Positions 1,629-14,329 of a stretch of 64,000 nt of DNA are shown in pieces; the first letter of the stretch is position 1; every line of letters starts with the position of its first letter. A program made the translations under genes and the position numbers. The notes beneath the pieces were generated by a model. The model was not told where the DNA came from, made no database searches, and was given only the letters and a program-made list of their open reading frames with translations. The DNA comes from an uncultured bacterium (GTDB taxonomy: Bacteria > Bacillota_I > Bacilli_A > RFN20 > CAG-826), in contig CASDYC010000001.1 in NCBI GenBank assembly GCA_949285665.1, forward strand, positions 520,107 to 584,106, read 5' to 3'.

Positions 1629-1681
1629 AGAAAAATTTTATCATATAGTTTTGTTTTTTATTAAATAACATTTAAGAAATT

Positions 1682-1709
1682 AAAAAATTGCTCAAATTAT
1701 CGAGCAATT
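1682..1709 (-). terminator. Rho-independent terminator (minus strand)
   Basis: Perfect 8-bp stem (1686-1693 with 1702-1709) and an 8-base loop. On the minus strand it is followed by a run of six T. It lies downstream of the island operon and stops read-through into the U32 gene. Confidence 0.65.
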
Positions 1710-1791
1710 ATCTATAACTTTGATATATTATATCAAACCGTTGATTTTAACTGTCTTTGTGCTATCGTATAATACAAAACGACACCCCTAC

Positions 1792-1809
1792 TTGAATATT
1801 CTAACGCTT
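1792..1809. repeat. Left flanking repeat of GC-richer island
   Basis: TTGAATATTCTAACGCTT here matches TTGAATATTCTAGTGCTT at 4920-4937 in 16 of 18 positions, in direct orientation. The pair brackets the GC-richer island. It may be a trace of the event that inserted the island, but no integrase is present. Confidence 0.4.
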
Positions 1810-2113: not shown

Positions 2114-2680
2114 TTATTTTATTGATTTTATAACTTTGGCAGGCACGCCTACCGCGATGGTGTTACATGGTATATCTTTGTTGACAACAGCACCTGCACC
2201 GATGATTGCCCCATCACCGATATTGACACCCGGAAGTATCGTTGCGTGAGCGCCTATCCATACGTTCTTCCCTATATGGATTGGTTTGAATATCATAGAA
2301 CCTCTTTTGTCATGGTCCATATCGTGGTTGATTGTCGCAAACACGACTTGGTGACCTATCAGCGTACTGTCACCGATGTAGATTCCGCCTTGGTCCTGAA
2401 AGCAACATCCGGAGTTAATGAAGACATTCTTTCCAAGATGGAGATTCATCCCAAAATCGGTATATATCGCTGGAAATATCTTCAATGTTTCATTCACCTT
2501 TTCTTGAGTCAATTCTCTCATCAATTCTTGTATCTCGTTTTGCAAAAGAAACTTGTTGTTTATCTCACTTACTATTTTTTGTGCACGATAGGAAGATTCA
2601 TCCATGAAACGCTGCGCTTCGCTATCACTATCAACATATCCTTTTTCACATACTAATTTTAAATATTCTTCTCTATTCAT
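2114..2680 (-). CDS. Sugar O-acetyltransferase (maltose/galactoside type, hexapeptide repeat)
   Basis: 188 aa from the ATG at 2680, which has GGAG nine bases upstream, inside the end of the preceding gene. Longer starts read backwards through that gene and are rejected. The N-terminal helical cap has the LacA/Maa pattern. It is followed by left-handed beta-helix hexapeptide repeats (IHIGKNVWIGAHATILPGV, IGDGAIIGAGAVV), the TINHD segment carrying the likely catalytic His, and the typical ending VGVPAKVIKSI. The family moves an acetyl group from acetyl-CoA to a sugar hydroxyl in the cytoplasm. It sits in the putative MerR-controlled operon, suggesting detoxification or salvage duty. The physiological acceptor is unknown. 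Base composition is foreign to the host. Confidence 0.88.
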   Translation of the reverse strand: MNREEYLKLVCEKGYVDSDSEAQRFMDESSYRAQKIVSEINNKFLLQNEIQELMRELTQEKVNETLKIFPAIYTDFGMNLHLGKNVFINSGCCFQDQGGIYIGDSTLIGHQVVFATINHDMDHDKRGSMIFKPIHIGKNVWIGAHATILPGVNIGDGAIIGAGAVVNKDIPCNTIAVGVPAKVIKSIK

Positions 2681-2688
2681 TATTTTTG

Positions 2689-3189
2689 TCACTCCAATAA
2701 GGTAAAGGTCGCTACGACATCGTCGTCTCCTAATGCCTCTTCCCAATAAGTCAAATCATCAACATGGCCAAGCATCGTATAACTCCAGGTGTTTGATCCA
2801 TAGAACATCACGATTTGGTTTCCTTGATAAAGAACGATATCCCCTGGCTTCGTCGTGATACGAGTATTATCGGTTGTCAAGCTTCTTCCCAAAGGACCGA
2901 CTTTCTCAAAACCACCATAATCCTCGAAATTGATTGTTATCTGTTCGTTTCTTGCCATTTCGACAAGTTCGTGCGAGGCATCGTTTTCTTCTAGTGTCAC
3001 ATCGAATTCATAATCTTTAATCTCAAGTTTTAACTTCATTTCGTTTTCATCCTCATTTGATTCATTCTCACTTTCCTGATTTTCGTTTGTTGAACTTCCG
3101 GTTTCATTAGTAGTTGGTCGAGTGCTGTTGCAAGAGCTCAAACATGCTGCAAACAAAAAGATTGGCAATATCAAAAGTGTAACTTTCAT
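2689..3189 (-). CDS. Cyclophilin-like fold lipoprotein
   Basis: 166 aa. A lipoprotein signal peptide ends in LSSC (Cys20), followed by a Ser/Asn/Glu-rich linker to about residue 50. The rest matches the bacterial cyclophilin-like domain: LVEMARNEQITINFEDYGGFEKVGPLGRSL, then GDIVLYQGNQIVMFYGSNTWSYTMLG. The family is related to cyclophilins, but a ligand and isomerase activity are unproven for this subgroup. Such genes often sit with MerR regulators, hydrolases and reductases in Firmicutes. The stop overlaps the ribosome-binding site of the acetyltransferase, so the two are translated as one operon. It should be tethered to the outer face of the membrane. Confidence 0.8.
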   Translation of the reverse strand: MKVTLLILPIFLFAACLSSCNSTRPTTNETGSSTNENQESENESNEDENEMKLKLEIKDYEFDVTLEENDASHELVEMARNEQITINFEDYGGFEKVGPLGRSLTTDNTRITTKPGDIVLYQGNQIVMFYGSNTWSYTMLGHVDDLTYWEEALGDDDVVATFTLLE

Positions 3190-3210: not shown

Positions 3211-4216
3211 TTATTTTAAATTAGTTCTAAGGAAGCTCACGATCTTATCGAATGGTATGATGTCCAGGTTGTCGTAAAGGTCCGTATGAACCGCACCAAG
3301 AATAATTAATAACTCTTTATTCTCTGGATTCGGATTTCCCTTCATCATGTTCTCAAAGGCCTCTTTTCCCATATAGCAGGAATGGGCTTTTTCGCCATGA
3401 ATAATTAAGACTGCCGAGCGTATTTCATTCGTATATTGAAGAATAGGCGCATTCAAGAAAGACATCGTCCCGATAAGATTCCATCCATCCGTAGAATTAA
3501 GCGAACGAGGATGATAGGCACGTCCTTTATAGTATTCACTATATTCTTTGACATAAAAAGGAACTTCGTTAGGTACTGGTAAAGGAATACAACCTCCCGC
3601 TCTACCATAATCACCACTTCCATAGATTTTTGTTCTTAGATTACTATAAGTGTCTCTTATTTTATGACGCTCTACCTCGCTGTCGTTTTGATCAAAATAC
3701 CCTTTTGCGGCAATCTTTTGCGGCAATCCTACTCATGTCATACATTGTAGAGACTATCGTTACTTTTATTCTCGTGTCGATGCTTGCAGTATTCAAAGCC
3801 AATCCTCCCCAACCGCATATGCCGATGATTCCGATGCGATCAGGATCTGCTTTCCCATATGTCGATAAGAAATCTACGGCTGCTTGAAAATCTTCAGTGT
3901 TGATATCGGGCGATGCGTTATAACGAGGATAACCACCACTTTCACCAGTGTATGAAGGGTCAAATGCAAGCGTGATGAATCCTCTTTTTGCCATCTCCAT
4001 CGCATATAATCCGCTGGCTTGTTCTTTAACCGCACCGAATGGACCACACACTGCTAATGCAGGTAATTTATCTTCGTTAATGTTTTTAGGCGAATATAAA
4101 TCACCAACCAAATCAATACCGAATCTGTTGTGGAATACGACTTTCTCATGGTTTACATTCTCATCCAACTTGAAAGTCTTGTCCCACTCTTGTTCCAAAA
4201 CAACGTTTTTATTCAT
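3211..4216 (-). pseudogene. Alpha/beta hydrolase (dienelactone-hydrolase-like), frameshifted
   Basis: Two frames together make one hydrolase. Residues 1-163 are read from the ATG at 4216 (AGTGAGG upstream) and contain the nucleophile elbow GICGWGG (Cys nucleophile). The C-terminal part, starting near 3726 in another frame, holds IIHGEKAHS and the catalytic-His segment GAVHTDLYD. The break is a 13-bp tandem duplication of TTTTGCGGCAATC at 3703-3715 and 3716-3728. Removing one copy restores an uninterrupted MYDMSRIAAKGYFDQND. The upstream frame runs only a few residues past the repeat. As assembled, the enzyme lacks its acid and His residues and should be inactive. It is first in the island operon, directly behind the MerR-type promoter. 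Confidence 0.85.
3703..3728. repeat. 13-bp tandem duplication causing the hydrolase frameshift
   Basis: TTTTGCGGCAATC occurs twice with no gap. Thirteen is not a multiple of three, so the second copy shifts the frame. Perfect identity suggests a recent slippage event, or an assembly artefact. Confidence 0.9.
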
Positions 4217-4310: not shown

Positions 4311-4753
4311 ATGACATATACGATCGGTGAGATTTCCAAAAGATTCAACATCTCAATATCCACTATCCGTTATTATGACAAGGAAGGTTTACTTCCCGAC
4401 ATCAAACGAGATAACGGCATAAAAAATTTAGCGATCAAGACGTGGAAACTATATTCATAATCGAATGTCTCAAGAAGACAAATGTCGAGTTGAAGAACAT
4501 AAAACGTTTTATCATGATGGTCAAGCAAGGCGATTCTACTATCGATGAAAGGCTTAATTTCTTCAAAGAACAAAAAGAAAAGACGTTGAACCAAATCAAA
4601 GTGCTTAAGAAAGCCCTCGAGATGCTCGAATACAAGGAATGGTACTATACGAAGGCCAAGGAACTTGGATCGACAATAGAACTTGAAAACAATATCGATT
4701 CATATAGACCAAAAGAAATTAAAGAGCTCTATGAATTGGCTCATAAACAATAA
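4311..4753 (+). pseudogene. MerR-family transcriptional regulator, frameshifted
   Basis: The ATG at 4311 has AAGGAG upstream. The N-terminus TIGEISKRFNISISTIRYYDKEGLL is the MerR helix-turn-helix and wing. After the run of six A at 4421-4426 the frame ends within about a dozen codons. One added A would give KKFSDQDVETIFIIECLKK and join the second half (frame of 4442-4753), which holds the long dimerisation helix (TLNQIKVLKKALEMLEYKEWYYTKA). The full protein would be about 147 aa, a normal MerR length. No metal-binding cysteine pattern is evident, so an aldehyde/stress-type (AdhR-like) sensor is more likely than a metal sensor. It may be a real pseudogene or a homopolymer error. Confidence 0.85.
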
Positions 4754-4921
4754 TATTTGGAAGCAAAAATCCTACAAAACCCATATATTTTTTGAAAAAC
4801 CGCGAATTCCAAAATATTTATCCCGTATTTTTCGTGAGTCCCCTTGCTCGGTACCCCAAGGACTATTTAAGACCTACCAGGTGAGGTTTAAGGCGCCATT
4901 ATTTATATTTTTCGCTAAGTT
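4754..4921. other. Intergenic end of the island
   Basis: No convincing gene. It contains an imperfect hairpin (AGTCC near 4837 with GGACT near 4863). Composition falls back from GC-richer to AT-rich across this stretch, marking the right side of the island. Confidence 0.4.
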
Positions 4922-4955
4922 GAATATTCTAGTGCTTGGAAGCCCTAGAATATTC
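4922..4955. repeat. Long hairpin at right island edge
   Basis: GAATATTCTAG (4922-4932) pairs with CTAGAATATTC (4945-4955), and GCTT (4934-4937) pairs with AAGC (4940-4943). That leaves one mismatch and a two-base loop. Its left arm is the copy of the repeat seen at 1792-1809. Confidence 0.6.
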
Positions 4956-4958
4956 ATT

Positions 4959-5144
4959 CTAGTAGCCTAACGTTTTTCTAGTAGGGTTATTGTTCGTCTA
5001 GTAGGACTAAAATTAGAAAATCCGTAGTTTCGAGCAAATTTATATCTGCTAGAAAAACGCAACATAATAAAAAATGCCTGATTTCTCGGACAAATATCGC
5101 TAATTTTGACACCATTTAATTGTTTCAAAATGTTAGTTATAAGA
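4959..5144 (-). repeat. tRNA-trailing repeat element, copy A
   Basis: Homologous to 14072-14253. Both copies run from the 3' end of a tRNA gene (Ser here, Lys there) for about 185 bp. They share a GAAA-loop hairpin about 53 bases past the tRNA, a CTGCTAG/CTAG motif, and three CTAGTAG-like units at 4959, 4978 and 4998, spaced 19-20 bp. The function is unknown; the part nearest the tRNA works as a trailer and terminator. Confidence 0.65.
5069..5092 (-). terminator. GAAA-loop terminator of the Met-Ile2-Ser tRNA operon
   Basis: On the minus strand a stem (5092-5086 with 5081-5075, one mismatch and one G-U pair) is capped by GAAA and followed by a T-rich run. The equivalent hairpin at 14185-14200 has compensating base changes. 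Confidence 0.65.
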
Positions 5145-5235
5145 TGGCGGAGGTTTAGAGATTCGAACTCTAGCGGGACTTGCATCCCCTATCGGTTTTC
5201 AAGACCGACCCCTTCAACCACTTGGGTAAACCTCC
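5145..5235 (-). tRNA. tRNA-Ser (UGA)
   Basis: The minus strand folds into a cloverleaf: acceptor GGAGGTT with encoded CCA, anticodon loop CTTGAAA (anticodon UGA), and the long variable arm typical of tRNA-Ser. It is 91 bases with CCA, and last of three tRNAs transcribed leftwards. Confidence 0.95.
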
Positions 5236-6239: not shown

Positions 6240-8636
6240 ATGAAAACACAAAAATTATTAACTTTAAGTTTGCTAGTTATTATTTCATTAACATCTTGTA
6301 ATAATAATGATGATGATATTACAAGTTCAAATAATACTACAACAACTACTTCAACCTCTACAACTACTTCAACCAGTAATACAACAAGTGATATTATCGA
6401 TTTAAGAGGCGATTTAGTTAATGTTTTAAAAGAGAATAATTTATCATATAAATCAACTCTAACTGAAACTATTAAAACTCAAGCAACTGGAAATACTTAC
6501 AAAACTTCATATAATTTGGCTGGACATATTTCAAGTAATAGATATTATTTGCAAATTGAAGATAATTTCATTTATGACTTTTTTAAAGATAGTTTAGGAA
6601 GAGCCGTTGTTAAAAAATTAGATCCAATAACAAACGAAACAAAAGATACATTTACTTCAAGTATTGCCATAATGTTTGATGCACAATTTAAAAATCCATT
6701 GACTAGTATTGAAAAAGAAGATTTAAATGTAATAGATTCAAACACAATCTCATATAAATTAAATAAAGACGATGGAATTCAAATTGGAAGAATGTTTGCA
6801 AATGAAGATTTTGAATTTGAAGATACTAGTTTTATTTTTGATGATAATAAAAACTTAACAAATATTGAATTTTCATATTCAGTTGAAGGTTATGATTTAA
6901 TTTATGGAAATAATACTACTACTTATACTCTAAATCTTAACTTAGTATCAATAGAAGAATTAAATTTACCAAATCCAGAGCCTAAAAAAGAAACTGAAAA
7001 CTCTGCAAAACTTAATGATTTTTTAAAATTATTACAAAATGGTAATTATTCATTTATAAGTAAAGCAACTTCTGATAATTATTTATTACACACTTATAAT
7101 GGTAAACTAAATTCAAATGGATATATGATTACATATTCATCAGCTGGTTTAGATGATGAAGTTTTTGGCTATATGCAAGATGAAAATCAAATAATTCCAG
7201 TTAATTTAGTTAATAATGAATTAGTACAAACTACATTTCCATTAGATGGAAATGTTAGTCAATTTAAAACTTTATTTAATTATAATTCTAATGTCTTTTC
7301 TTATTTAAATGGAATATATAATTTAGAAAAAGGAATTGGATTATATGACCAAATTAAAAATATGTTAGTTGAAGCAAGTATTCCAGATCATGAAGAAATT
7401 GCAATTATTGATGGTTCATTTAATTTAGTATTAAATTCAAATAATACACTAACTTATACATTTACATCTAGTTTTGATGTTGGAGAAAGTGAACCATTAA
7501 TTGTCAATTATGAAACAACTATATATGATATAAATAATACTAATTTAGATTATACACTAGAAGATGTAATAACTCTTCCACTTGGTGCAAGTAATTGGTC
7601 AGAAGTAGAAAATGCTAGCGAATTATTAAATCATTATAAAATTAATCAAAACATACTACCTTTTTATAATCCAAACTTAGAGGGATATTGGATTTCAAGT
7701 GGTTTAGATGTTGAATATCCAAATTTAAGTATTGTTTTAAAAAATTCAAATGACTATACAAAAGTTATGGAATATTATAAAGAAAATTTAGTCAACTTAG
7801 GTTGGCAAAATTATGATAATGGAGCTAGTGAAGAATTAATTTACTTATACAAAGATGAAGAAAATAATCTTAAATATAAAATTGAATTAATATCTAGTAG
7901 TACTTCTTTTGCAATTTATTTTTATGAAGCTCAAGTATTAAAATCAAATGTCATTGAATTTATTAAAAATAACTTTAAAGATAATGTTAATTATACAATT
8001 ATTGGAGAATTAAACTCATATCTAACACAAGTTAATATCTCTAGTGATGGAAGTATTATTCCAATTGATGGAGCAAAGGTAGAAAAAAGAAATAATGCTA
8101 ATTTTACATTAAAATACACAAATGATGCAGCATATTTAGCATGTGATGGAGTTTTTGGAGAATATTTATACATTAATAAAGAAGATATTGGATATGATAA
8201 ATATGAAAAATTAAATGATGAAGAAAAATTTAATTTAATAGACTCAAATAATTCTAAAAAATATTATGATATTGGGGCATTATATACCTTAACAAGACTT
8301 GCTAATACGGATGAAGATGGATATGATTATCAATTAATTGATAATAATTTAAATAAAATATATACAACACATTATTGGCCAATTTATATTCTTGAATCAT
8401 TTATTAGTGATTTTGGATTATCATTTGGAGGATATTCTATTAACTTCATGGATGCAACAATAATATTAAATGAAGATAATACACTAGATATTATTAGTAT
8501 ATGTAAAACTCAAGCTTCATATTTTAAAGAAACAATTAATGATGAAGTTAAATATTATACAGGATATCAAGAAATTACATATCATGTTCAAGATATAAAT
8601 AATACTCAAATCGATACAAGCCAATTATTAAAATAA
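6240..8636 (+). CDS. Large surface lipoprotein, paralogue of 10424-12850
   Basis: 798 aa. The signal peptide ends with LTSC (Cys20), followed by an acidic stretch and a Thr/Ser linker to about residue 55. The mature part has no family I recognise. It contains a repeated plan of beta-rich units of roughly 200 residues, such as LNDFLKLLQNGNYSF and LLNHYKINQNILPFYN. It is clearly related to the 808-aa lipoprotein at 10424: SNWSEVENASELLNHYKI corresponds to TSWDDVTNAVDILNDFDL, and KENLVNLGWQNYDN to QNLLKEKGWNSADN. AAAGGAG precedes the ATG. The protein should be anchored outside the cell. A binding or structural role is a guess. Control by the neighbouring TetR protein is likely. Confidence 0.8.
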   Translation: MKTQKLLTLSLLVIISLTSCNNNDDDITSSNNTTTTTSTSTTTSTSNTTSDIIDLRGDLVNVLKENNLSYKSTLTETIKTQATGNTYKTSYNLAGHISSNRYYLQIEDNFIYDFFKDSLGRAVVKKLDPITNETKDTFTSSIAIMFDAQFKNPLTSIEKEDLNVIDSNTISYKLNKDDGIQIGRMFANEDFEFEDTSFIFDDNKNLTNIEFSYSVEGYDLIYGNNTTTYTLNLNLVSIEELNLPNPEPKKETENSAKLNDFLKLLQNGNYSFISKATSDNYLLHTYNGKLNSNGYMITYSSAGLDDEVFGYMQDENQIIPVNLVNNELVQTTFPLDGNVSQFKTLFNYNSNVFSYLNGIYNLEKGIGLYDQIKNMLVEASIPDHEEIAIIDGSFNLVLNSNNTLTYTFTSSFDVGESEPLIVNYETTIYDINNTNLDYTLEDVITLPLGASNWSEVENASELLNHYKINQNILPFYNPNLEGYWISSGLDVEYPNLSIVLKNSNDYTKVMEYYKENLVNLGWQNYDNGASEELIYLYKDEENNLKYKIELISSSTSFAIYFYEAQVLKSNVIEFIKNNFKDNVNYTIIGELNSYLTQVNISSDGSIIPIDGAKVEKRNNANFTLKYTNDAAYLACDGVFGEYLYINKEDIGYDKYEKLNDEEKFNLIDSNNSKKYYDIGALYTLTRLANTDEDGYDYQLIDNNLNKIYTTHYWPIYILESFISDFGLSFGGYSINFMDATIILNEDNTLDIISICKTQASYFKETINDEVKYYTGYQEITYHVQDINNTQIDTSQLLK

Positions 8637-12909: not shown

Positions 12910-13010
12910 ATTAATTAAATAATTACAAATTATTAACATTTTATATTTATTATTTATTTAAAATATTCTGGTCTTTATCAATCGCATGAAAGCGTAAATA
13001 TCAATCATTA

Positions 13011-13388
13011 TCATTTTTCATGATCGATTACCCATTGCAAAAGGTCATCATAATCAACTTCACCGGCTGCTGTTTTTAGGAAAACTGAAGCCAGTTCATC
13101 TTGTGTATAAAAAAGTGAAATTCCGTTCAATGCAAGAAACACAAGCATTGTATGTGCAGCGATTCTCTTGTTGCCATCTAAGAAAGGGCGATTTTGAACA
13201 AGGCCACAAGCTAGACGAGCCGCTTTCTGTTGTATTGATTGAAATAGTTCGGTTGAATCAAAGGTTTGGAATGGGGCTGCAATAGCCGAATCTAAAAGTC
13301 CCTCATCCCGCAAACCATCCAAACCCCCTGTTTCCACAATCAAAGTATGGTGCATAGCAATAATTTGTTGTTTAGAAAGAACAATCAC
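13011..13388 (-). CDS. doc: Death-on-curing (Doc/Fic-fold) toxin with altered active-site motif
   Basis: 125 aa from a GTG start at 13388 that overlaps the antitoxin stop (GTGA). The chain matches the Doc family throughout: TGGLDGLRDEGLLDSAIAAPFQTF near the start and FLDGNKRIAAHTMLVFLALNG in the middle. Doc toxins phosphorylate EF-Tu and stop translation. The Fic motif normally reads H-P-F-x-D-G-N-K-R or H-x-F-x-D-A-N-K-R. Here it reads NRPFLDGNKR, so the catalytic His is Arg67 (codon CGC at 13190-13188, one base from CAC). The other motif residues remain. The toxin may be inactive or attenuated. GC content is higher than in the neighbours, as expected for a mobile toxin-antitoxin module. Confidence 0.9.
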   Translation of the reverse strand: MIVLSKQQIIAMHHTLIVETGGLDGLRDEGLLDSAIAAPFQTFDSTELFQSIQQKAARLACGLVQNRPFLDGNKRIAAHTMLVFLALNGISLFYTQDELASVFLKTAAGEVDYDDLLQWVIDHEK

Positions 13389-13642
13389 TTCGCTAGCTCC
13401 TTATAAGCTATTATATTTTTTTCAATGAGGTTCTTGGAAAGTTTTTCTACGGAACTATCTGTTGCCGTCTGAATCGTAGTTCCTGTACGCTTGACCTCAA
13501 ATGGGATACGTTGTTCACGAACAGCTTGCTTTGCAAACATTGTAATGGCAGAACTAAAAGAAAGTCCAAGATCTCTAAACAATTCATCAGCTTGAGTTTT
13601 AAGTTTCTTATCAATTCGAATCGTAACATTGATGTTAGCCAT
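13385..13642 (-). CDS. RelB/DinJ-family antitoxin
   Basis: 85 aa. I chose the ATG at 13642 (MANINVTIRIDKKLK) because AGGAGGT lies ideally before it; the longer frame upstream is non-coding. MANINVTIRIDKKLKTQADELFRDLGLSFSSAITMF is the ribbon-helix-helix DNA-binding domain of RelB/DinJ proteins. The basic C-terminal part (EQRIPFEVKR onwards) would wrap the toxin. RelB-type antitoxins usually pair with RelE/YafQ toxins but are also found next to Doc-type toxins, as here. The four-base overlap implies coupled translation. A TATAAT box at 13678-13673 on the minus strand lies upstream. The pair should repress its own promoter. Confidence 0.88.
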   Translation of the reverse strand: MANINVTIRIDKKLKTQADELFRDLGLSFSSAITMFAKQAVREQRIPFEVKRTGTTIQTATDSSVEKLSKNLIEKNIIAYKELAK

Positions 13643-13770
13643 AATAATACCTCCTATTTGAATTACGCCTACATTATACAGCAAAACGAATGAAAAATAA
13701 ATCGTTTTAAGTAATATTATGTGCAATTTATTTGCAATACCATGAATAATATAAATTTTTCTATATTTAT

Positions 13771-14037
13771 TTAACAACCTCCCCGATATCCACTTTTGCT
13801 TTCGCTAATACGTTTTATAAATTCATTATTTCTTAAATACATTATATTATTATCAATTACCTTATCGCTAATACCGATTAAAACGAGTAGCTCAATTTAG
13901 TAATATTAAGATTATGTCTCATTTCAGAATGTATTCTTTCTCTAGTTGAATTTAAACCATGTTTTCTTGTAGCTGAAGTTTTATCACCAACTTCTATTAT
14001 AAATTTAGATTTATTAAATAATTGGTAACAAATCAAT
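13771..14037 (-). pseudogene. Decayed gene remnant with winged-helix-like end
   Basis: This otherwise empty stretch still reads like protein on the minus strand in two frames. About 14037-13893 gives FNKSKFIIEVGDKTSATRKH and further residues to a stop. From about 13895 another frame gives VLIGISDKVIDNNIMYLRNN and then FIKRISESKSGYRGGC, with a stop at 13771. The second piece resembles the C-terminal winged helix of AAA/AlbA-type or Fic proteins (IS..VI..NI..L....FIKRI...K.GY). The parent gene cannot be named with confidence. It lies between the toxin-antitoxin pair and the tRNA-Lys repeat. Confidence 0.4.
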
Positions 14038-14071
14038 ATTAAAAGTAAATAAAATGACAGGTATCATTTCT

Positions 14072-14253
14072 CTAGTAGGATATCGTTTATCTAATAGGTT
14101 TTCATTTTTCTAGTAGAACTAATTTTTGAAAATTCAGCAGTTTGAACCCAATTTTATCAACTAGGAAAACGTCAAAAATAAAAAACTCGATTTCTCGAGT
14201 AAATATTGTTCACTTGTATACCATTACTTTATATCAAATTATTAACTATACAA
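14072..14253 (-). repeat. tRNA-trailing repeat element, copy B
   Basis: Diverged copy of 4959-5144, ending directly at the 3' end of tRNA-Lys. Units CTAGTAG/CTAATAG at 14072, 14091 and 14110 are spaced 19 bp. In the 37 bases next to the tRNA, 26 match copy A with no gaps. The part between the units and the tRNA contains the terminator. Confidence 0.65.
14179..14200 (-). terminator. GAAA-loop terminator of tRNA-Lys
   Basis: On the minus strand ACTCGA (14200-14195), GAAA, TCGAGT (14190-14185), then a T run. It lies 53 bases past the tRNA, the same distance as in copy A. Confidence 0.8.
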
Positions 14254-14329
14254 TGGTCCGCCCTTAGAGAATCGAACTCTAGACCCACTGATTAAGAGTC
14301 AGTTGCTCTGCCAGCTGAGCTAAGGGCGG
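14254..14329 (-). tRNA. tRNA-Lys (CUU)
   Basis: 76 bases with encoded CCA. Acceptor CCGCCCT/AGGGCGG, TTCGA T-loop, anticodon loop CTCTTAA (anticodon CUU). It stands alone, downstream of the solute-binding gene on the same strand. Confidence 0.95.

Follow-up and report, generated by a model that had tools for sequence, protein, structure and literature searches.

We asked why two different tRNA genes should be trailed by one and the same repeat. In a 64,000-nucleotide stretch of the genome of an uncultured bacterium of the CAG-826 lineage (contig CASDYC010000001.1, positions 520,107 to 584,106; hereafter the window), copies of a 180-bp repeat follow a tRNA-Ser and a tRNA-Lys gene. A preliminary description, drawn from the window alone, had read it as a remnant of a tRNA-targeted element with integrase-like arm sites or as a structured RNA. 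We conclude that the repeat very probably forms the right end (RE) of non-autonomous cassettes, a family whose members integrate site-specifically. The tRNA-targeted element was therefore correctly foreseen, whereas "remnant" does not apply to the copy behind tRNA-Ser, which belongs to a complete 3.4-kb element (window 5144-1752) whose opposite end can be identified.

The repeat and its relatives

Both window copies lie on the minus strand and open at the first base past the tRNA gene, as had been described. When compared by global alignment (5144-4959 after tRNA-Ser, 14253-14072 after tRNA-Lys), they were identical at 132 of 187 aligned columns, and the score of 194 stood against 73.9 +/- 7.4 (maximum 113) in 2000 dinucleotide-model shuffles (z = 16). 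The finer details reported earlier were borne out: the GAAA-capped hairpin stands 53 bases from the tRNA in both copies, the compensating pairs G5076-C5091 versus A14185-T14200 and C5078-G5089 versus T14187-A14198 are present, and CTAGTAG units recur 19-20 bp apart (at 4959, 4978 and 4998, and at 14072, 14091 and 14110). We add that the middle unit of the Lys copy (14091) reads CTAATAG, and that the terminator stem of the Ser copy has an additional C-A mismatch (5077/5090) and one G-U pair. Against Rfam, only tRNAs reached threshold in the window, and the repeat matched no other family.

A covariance-model search of the whole 1.03-Mb source genome (G000), proposed earlier as a check, returned four strong copies, after tRNA-Ser(TGA), tRNA-Lys, tRNA-Ser(GCT) and the transfer-messenger RNA (tmRNA). 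All four strong hits thus follow a tRNA or tmRNA gene; a weak two-hairpin hit (C4:37331) abuts the left end (LE) of a cassette instead of a tRNA. The first 80 bases of the repeat recur in G000 after tRNA-Ser(GCT), tmRNA and tRNA-Met; the tRNA-Met copy, the fifth in this genome (L004 193-283, G000:C3), is broken off after ~30 bases by the end of an insertion sequence that carries a small helix-turn-helix transposase open reading frame (ORF).

For the search across genomes we used a covariance model built from four copies. It gave strong matches in other genera and families, with carriers in 60 of the 279 genomes of the order and also in a further order of the same class, where they are four species from a single genus. 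An exact 20-mer matched 88 stretches among 84,980 GTDB species, labelled Acholeplasmatales, Bacilli, Firmicutes, named Candidatus genera or unclassified, with one Clostridia. Because this 20-mer, which was used for most contigs, contains no CCA, tRNA context was not preselected among those contigs. Viral, phage and plasmid collections, in which the carrier hosts are poorly represented, yielded zero matches, and we set aside carriage by such replicons on that basis. The pooled, deduplicated set comprised 133 distinct RE copies, from hosts that are almost all metagenome-assembled genomes (MAGs); the copies were gathered by seeds from few RE sequences, and distant families are therefore undercounted. 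A divergent RE-like trailer after a tmRNA (L297 7864-7920, G031:C9; N17, then TGATACC and a hairpin) suggests further element subfamilies missed by the model.

Right ends at tRNA genes and at other cassettes

Sequence context could be scored for 114 RE copies with an intact start and sufficient upstream flank. Seventy begin at offset 0 after CCA, 65 of them at tRNA genes (17 anticodons are represented) and 5 at tmRNA genes, and another 25 abut, likewise at offset 0, the LE of another cassette, forming tandem arrays; 19 lie in other contexts, many of which are divergent LEs. The dinucleotide CA directly precedes the RE in 70/70 tRNA or tmRNA contexts, 24/25 LE contexts and 15/19 others. All cassettes at tRNA and tmRNA genes share one orientation and leave the RNA gene intact. 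The copies are thus neither without relatives nor at random sites, the two outcomes that the preliminary description had named as evidence against its reading. At one locus (L136 5160-5197) the RE is preceded by just the last 14 nt of a tRNA-Trp; here another element seems to have integrated inside the tRNA-Trp gene, displacing its 3' end together with the cassette.

These contexts bear directly on the structured RNA. In that reading the repeat would be a conserved two-hairpin 3' trailer for tRNA and tmRNA processing or termination, inherited with the gene. Two hairpins are indeed predicted in most full copies, the second being the GAAA-capped terminator, and the repeat is found after both tRNA and tmRNA. 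A trailer inherited with its gene should, however, not be confined to 60 of 279 genomes at different tRNAs per species, nor run on into iterons and shared cargo, and the 25 copies behind a cassette LE, where there is no RNA gene, largely refute it. The pairing pattern points the same way. Across 113 distinct copies the terminator retains most of its pairs, and some pairs have changed on both sides. Hairpin 1 has mainly pairs that are near-invariant or shift to G-U only, and its pair 21-35 is broken in 36 of 105 copies, so that it looks more like an inverted protein-binding motif. A functional RNA fits this pattern less well than does a terminator combined with an inverted DNA motif, and we regard a trailer RNA as almost certainly wrong.

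Architecture of the cassette

Each cassette is laid out as TCTTATAACTAACATTTTGATAC (RE), terminator, inverted CTACTAG iterons, cargo, CTAGTAG iterons and GTATCAAAGCGATAGCACAAAGA-CA (LE), with ...CTAGTAAGGGTTTCGTTTTGCTAGTAGGGGTGTCGTTTTGTATCAAAGCGATAGCACAAAGACA as the LE sequence. We found about 30 complete elements, which measure 0.14-9.6 kb from RE to LE; cassette ends are about 80-250 bp, most of them with inverted CTAGTAG iterons. An array in Candidatus Avacholeplasma faecigallinarum (L196) includes a cargo-less minimal cassette, RE fused to LE, of ~136 bp from strand position 7780 (minus). Inside the RE, ~115 bases in and between oppositely oriented iterons, copies retain a palindrome similar to a tRNA T-arm (GGTTCGAACC or degenerate), for example at about 5027-5035 (minus) in the window and about 1617-1626 in L085.

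Joined LE and RE form an imperfect palindrome centred on CA, GTATCAA-N16-CA-N16-TTGATAC. Around CA the two ends match at 18 of 25 positions, which none of 20000 shuffles reached. Such a palindrome, ~50 bp long with a 2-bp central dinucleotide, is a characteristic of large serine integrase elements. LE variants retain GTATYAA-N16-CA despite different intervening 16 bases, and the LE terminates in ACAAAGACA or a close variant regardless of the tRNA. CA alone is common to both junctions; across the complete elements, no direct repeat of the tRNA 3' end beyond CA was found at the far junction. In 64 of 65 tRNA contexts, moreover, the T-loop sequence TTCRA lies 16 bases from the CA of CCA, and GTATCAA in the LE is likewise 16 nt from CA. 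This shared spacing suggests target mimicry.

The same ends might instead belong to a DDE-type, MITE-like (miniature inverted-repeat transposable element) transposon, with 25-bp terminal inverted repeats, a 2-bp CA duplication and its transposase in trans. Such a transposon would suit the imperfect terminal inverted repeats, the presence of iterons at either end, which recalls Tn7/Tn402-like elements, and the absence of an enzyme in cis. Known DDE target-site duplications reproduce the target and measure 2 bp (TA) or 3-14 bp, whereas here the LE almost invariably terminates in an (A)CA of its own, irrespective of the tRNA, as if the exchange took place at CA; the targets, in addition, share the T-loop motif at the spacing of the element's own motif. 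We therefore consider a DDE transposon highly improbable, with the limit that DDE transposases were not surveyed genome-wide.

Cargo and evidence of movement

The cassettes carry restriction-modification and toxin-antitoxin systems, nucleases, transporters and regulators. C5 methyltransferases are present, one type of which adjoins the RE in at least seven elements; beside a C5 methyltransferase we also found a MutH-fold (PF02976) protein. Eco57I-type and type I restriction-modification systems, Schlafen-AlbA proteins, RhuM, a YhcG nuclease, DUF3990, an ABC importer and a Na/H exchanger complete the list.

The same cargo is found at different tRNA genes and in different genera, families and orders. 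Over 2291 bp, the Ser element of the window shares 97.0% identity with an element that a genome of another family (L081) has at tmRNA. Its identity to an element within a tandem array of an Acholeplasmatales-labelled MAG, another order (L189), is 97.4%. Other cargo pairs, 94-99% identical, are located at Lys/Trp, Ser/Met, Arg/Trp and Trp/Leu tRNAs, and the RelB/Doc cargo of the Lys element is shared with the L232 element (84.8% over 735 bp). That the repeat is patchy in distribution yet highly conserved also counts in favor of mobile cassettes.

An empty site was available for comparison. Genome G102 has a 1.9-kb element after tmRNA, and its DNA past the LE is 80-82% identical to, and collinear with, the DNA directly after the tmRNA CCA in the sister species G103 and G097, both of which lack the element there and have their own terminator. 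A terminator-like hairpin also follows 15 of 20 terminal LEs, versus 31% of control windows. Together these observations place the point of entry between CCA and the native terminator, with the cassette bringing a terminator of its own, the hairpin noted in the preliminary description; that the sister species have another terminator at the empty site is one more argument against a trailer RNA.

Several points weigh against site-specifically integrating cassettes. Homologous recombination between the conserved ends could account for part of the spread, and some copies (for example L152 and L193) have no tRNA and no evident LE beside them. The T-loop matches the element motif only in TCRA (4 of 7 bases), and the mimicry could be a coincidence. 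The search for a recombinase described below identified none, and site-specific exchange is deduced from the junctions.

A possible mechanism

The junctions lead us to the following model. The cassette would be excised as a circle whose joint, GTATCAA-N16-CA-N16-TTGATAC, is the recombination site, and a recombinase supplied in trans would carry out the exchange at CA, with the CTAGTAG/CTACTAG iterons as putative accessory (arm-type) sites. Inverted iteron arrays at both ends make the arm sites of the preliminary description plausible. Acting on the LE-RE joint, such an enzyme may read tRNA genes as equivalent half-sites, because the T-loop TTCRA stands at the same 16-nt spacing as GTATCAA in the LE. 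This equivalence would explain both the breadth of tRNA targets and the tandem stacking. Tentatively, and at somewhat less than even likelihood, we propose a new kind of cassette recombination, in which any tRNA or tmRNA gene offers an attachment site, made up of its T-loop and CCA, through a half-site spacing match to GTATCAA-N16-CA. If this is true, arrays of defence and stress cassettes, shared by gut Bacilli of different orders, could land at every tRNA gene.

Search for the mobilising enzyme

We looked for a recombinase common to the elements in the cargo of about 30 complete elements, using Pfam scans and a hidden Markov model scan for tyrosine and serine recombinases, and found none. 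The only recurrent recombinase within elements is linked to hsdS. It is a 267-aa tyrosine recombinase, present in elements of G017 and G048, which we considered as the cassette integrase and rejected; it occurs in 15 of 279 genomes, usually beside type I restriction-modification hsdS, and therefore reads as an hsdS-shuffling recombinase, that is, as cargo. In G031 it follows tmRNA without hsdS. Four loci combine it with hsdS and inverted partial hsdS genes (L209 899-4838, L319 5645-9923, L324 and L325); these are probable phase-variable type I restriction systems, one of them within a cassette.

Each of the carriers G109, G266, G269 and G154 has two tyrosine recombinases. All those typed against NCBIfam (two each in G000, G103 and G154, one each in G109, G266 and G269) were best matched to XerC/XerD and fell far below the integron integrase cut-offs. 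No serine recombinase was found in G109, G266 or G269, and a serine integrase gene was absent from G000, G102, G109, G266, G269 and G031. The DEDD transposase PF01548 of the IS110/IS1111 (bridge RNA) recombinases was absent from 13 of 13 carrier genomes searched, and we dropped this candidate.

One possibility is that the host XerC/XerD moves the cassettes, in the manner of pdif modules or of integrative mobile elements exploiting Xer (IMEX). It gains from the several carriers that have two tyrosine recombinases only, the typed ones XerC/XerD-like, and from those without a serine recombinase. To compare sites, we located the chromosomal dif of G000 (ACTTCGTATAATGTTTATTATGTTAACT; L327 1500-1527, G000:C1:184434-184459), ~2 kb from xerD. 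The cassette joint, centred on CA, is not dif-like (best match 13/22, p = 0.12) and the insertions lie at tRNA genes, so we judge this possibility very unlikely. Dif-like sites within 2-5 kb of a Xer gene are also present in G102, G266 and G269.

Another is that the cassettes are islands or satellites that lost their integrase and are integrated by the tyrosine or large serine integrase of a helper phage or integrative and conjugative element (ICE). tRNA 3' ends are classic integrase targets, the iterons resemble arm sites, and large serine recombinases adjoin or lie inside four RE copies. These four are only distantly related to one another and are absent from several carrier genomes, and we rejected them as a common helper. 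The far junction without a duplicated tRNA 3' end and the absence of matches in the phage, plasmid and viral collections also speak against such islands, which we hold to be rather unlikely; they are a variant of the cassettes proposed here and not a full alternative. With no enzyme common to the elements, and with several hosts having just XerC/XerD-type ones, mobilisation is probably by a helper in trans (a phage, plasmid, ICE or unrecognised enzyme; the DDE and HUH families were not surveyed genome-wide).

The Ser and Lys elements of the window

The features of both elements are collected in Table 1. The LE core of the Ser element is one base short and a MITE-like repeat lies in its RE, and this copy may therefore be inactive. 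The MITE-like family, with TGAATATTCTAG...CTAGAATATTCA termini and lengths of 36 to ~480 bp, has several copies in G000 (C1:293083, C1:850768-851252, C4:23270-23750), and a remnant of it abuts the LE of the Ser element. The LE of the Lys element is degenerate or lost.

Table 1. Features of the tRNA-Ser (element 1) and tRNA-Lys (element 2) cassettes, in window coordinates
Feature	Position	Strand	Basis
Flank past LE with terminator, probably the displaced native tRNA-Ser trailer	1678..1751	-	
LE of element 1: single surviving iteron AAGTAGGGGTGTCG, core GTATTATACGATAGCACAAAGACA (1 nt below consensus length)	1752..1792	-	
Cargo: hexapeptide acyltransferase; sister elements have it truncated or deleted	2114..2746	-	
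Cargo: cyclophilin-like lipoprotein (PF18050)	2689..3189	-	
Cargo: alpha/beta hydrolase, split in two ORFs (3692-4216, 3211-3726); intact in L081 (324 aa)	3211..4216	-	
Cargo: MerR-family regulator; full length 147 aa in L081 copy	4442..4753	+	
36-bp palindromic MITE-like insert (TGAATATTCTAG...CTAGAATATTCA) just inside RE; missing from near-identical L081 copy	4921..4956	.	
RE of element 1: TCTTATAACTAACATTTTGA core, hairpin 1 (5103-5131), terminator hairpin, inverted CTACTAG iterons	4957..5144	-	homology to 133 copies
Stem of the GAAA-capped intrinsic terminator that the element contributes to the tRNA transcript	5076..5091	-	
tRNA-Ser(TGA), anchor of element 1; encoded CCA is the junction	5145..5235	-	ARAGORN
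Possible degenerate LE of element 2 (TTTCATGCGATTGATAAAGACCA), uncertain	12968..12992	-	
Element 2 cargo: Fic/Doc toxin	13011..13388	-	
Element 2 cargo: RelB/DinJ-type antitoxin	13385..13777	-	
RE of element 2: terminator 14185-14200; iterons 14072, 14091, 14110	14058..14253	-	
tRNA-Lys(CTT), anchor of element 2	14254..14329	-	ARAGORN

Significance and comparison with known systems

The cassettes make up a gene-exchange network of abundant, uncultured gut Bacilli that we did not encounter in the literature searched. By means of a single pair of ends, cassettes with restriction-modification, toxin-antitoxin, nuclease, transporter and regulator genes pass from species to species and across families and orders. 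The ends offer a simple search handle for new defence genes. They also raise the questions of which enzyme moves integrase-less cassettes and whether the tRNA T-loop can act as a generic attachment site; such an enzyme, if real, could place DNA behind nearly every tRNA gene.

We found no described system matching the cassettes in the literature searched. They are a new variant among non-autonomous site-specific cassettes, and fail the features tested for integrons (the integrase) and for pdif modules (dif-like sites). Like tRNA-integrated genomic islands, ICEs and prophages, they insert at the 3' end of a tRNA or tmRNA gene and leave it intact; unlike these, they have no integrase in cis and no duplicated tRNA 3' end, and one end sequence serves 17 anticodons and tmRNA. 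Casposons and Tn7-like elements, including CRISPR-associated transposons (CAST), share the recurrent insertion near tRNA genes, and Tn7-like ends also have repeated binding sites. Casposon insertion produces a 14-15-bp duplication and that of Tn7 a 5-bp one. The cassette junctions, in contrast, show CA only, with neither the 14-15-bp duplication nor the 5-bp duplication of Tn7-like elements and CAST, whose transposition proteins (TnsB/TniA) were not searched genome-wide.

Tycheposons, as summarised in PMC10872708, are likewise cargo elements beside tRNA genes in small streamlined genomes; as characterised there they carry a tyrosine recombinase and span 4-200 kb, whereas our elements are mostly 1-9 kb and have no tyrosine recombinase. 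The pdif (dif) modules of Acinetobacter plasmids, which are bounded by 28-bp XerC/XerD sites (PMC6449649, PMC13141974), resemble the cassettes in being integrase-less, in their toxin-antitoxin and other adaptive cargo and in relying on an enzyme in trans; they differ in that the cassettes occupy chromosomal tRNA genes and have a joint that does not resemble dif.

Integrons, and above all the integrase-less attC arrays known as clusters of attC sites lacking integron-integrases (CALIN; PMC11389934), have in common with our elements small cassettes without a recombinase, diverse adaptive cargo, mobilisation in trans and tandem arrays in one orientation, which we found here in the 25 of 114 REs that abut an LE. 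No integron integrase was found among the typed carrier recombinases. The ends described here are longer than a typical attC and bear iterons, the cassettes are often multi-gene with their own terminator, and in place of attI the anchor is the 3' end of any tRNA or tmRNA gene.
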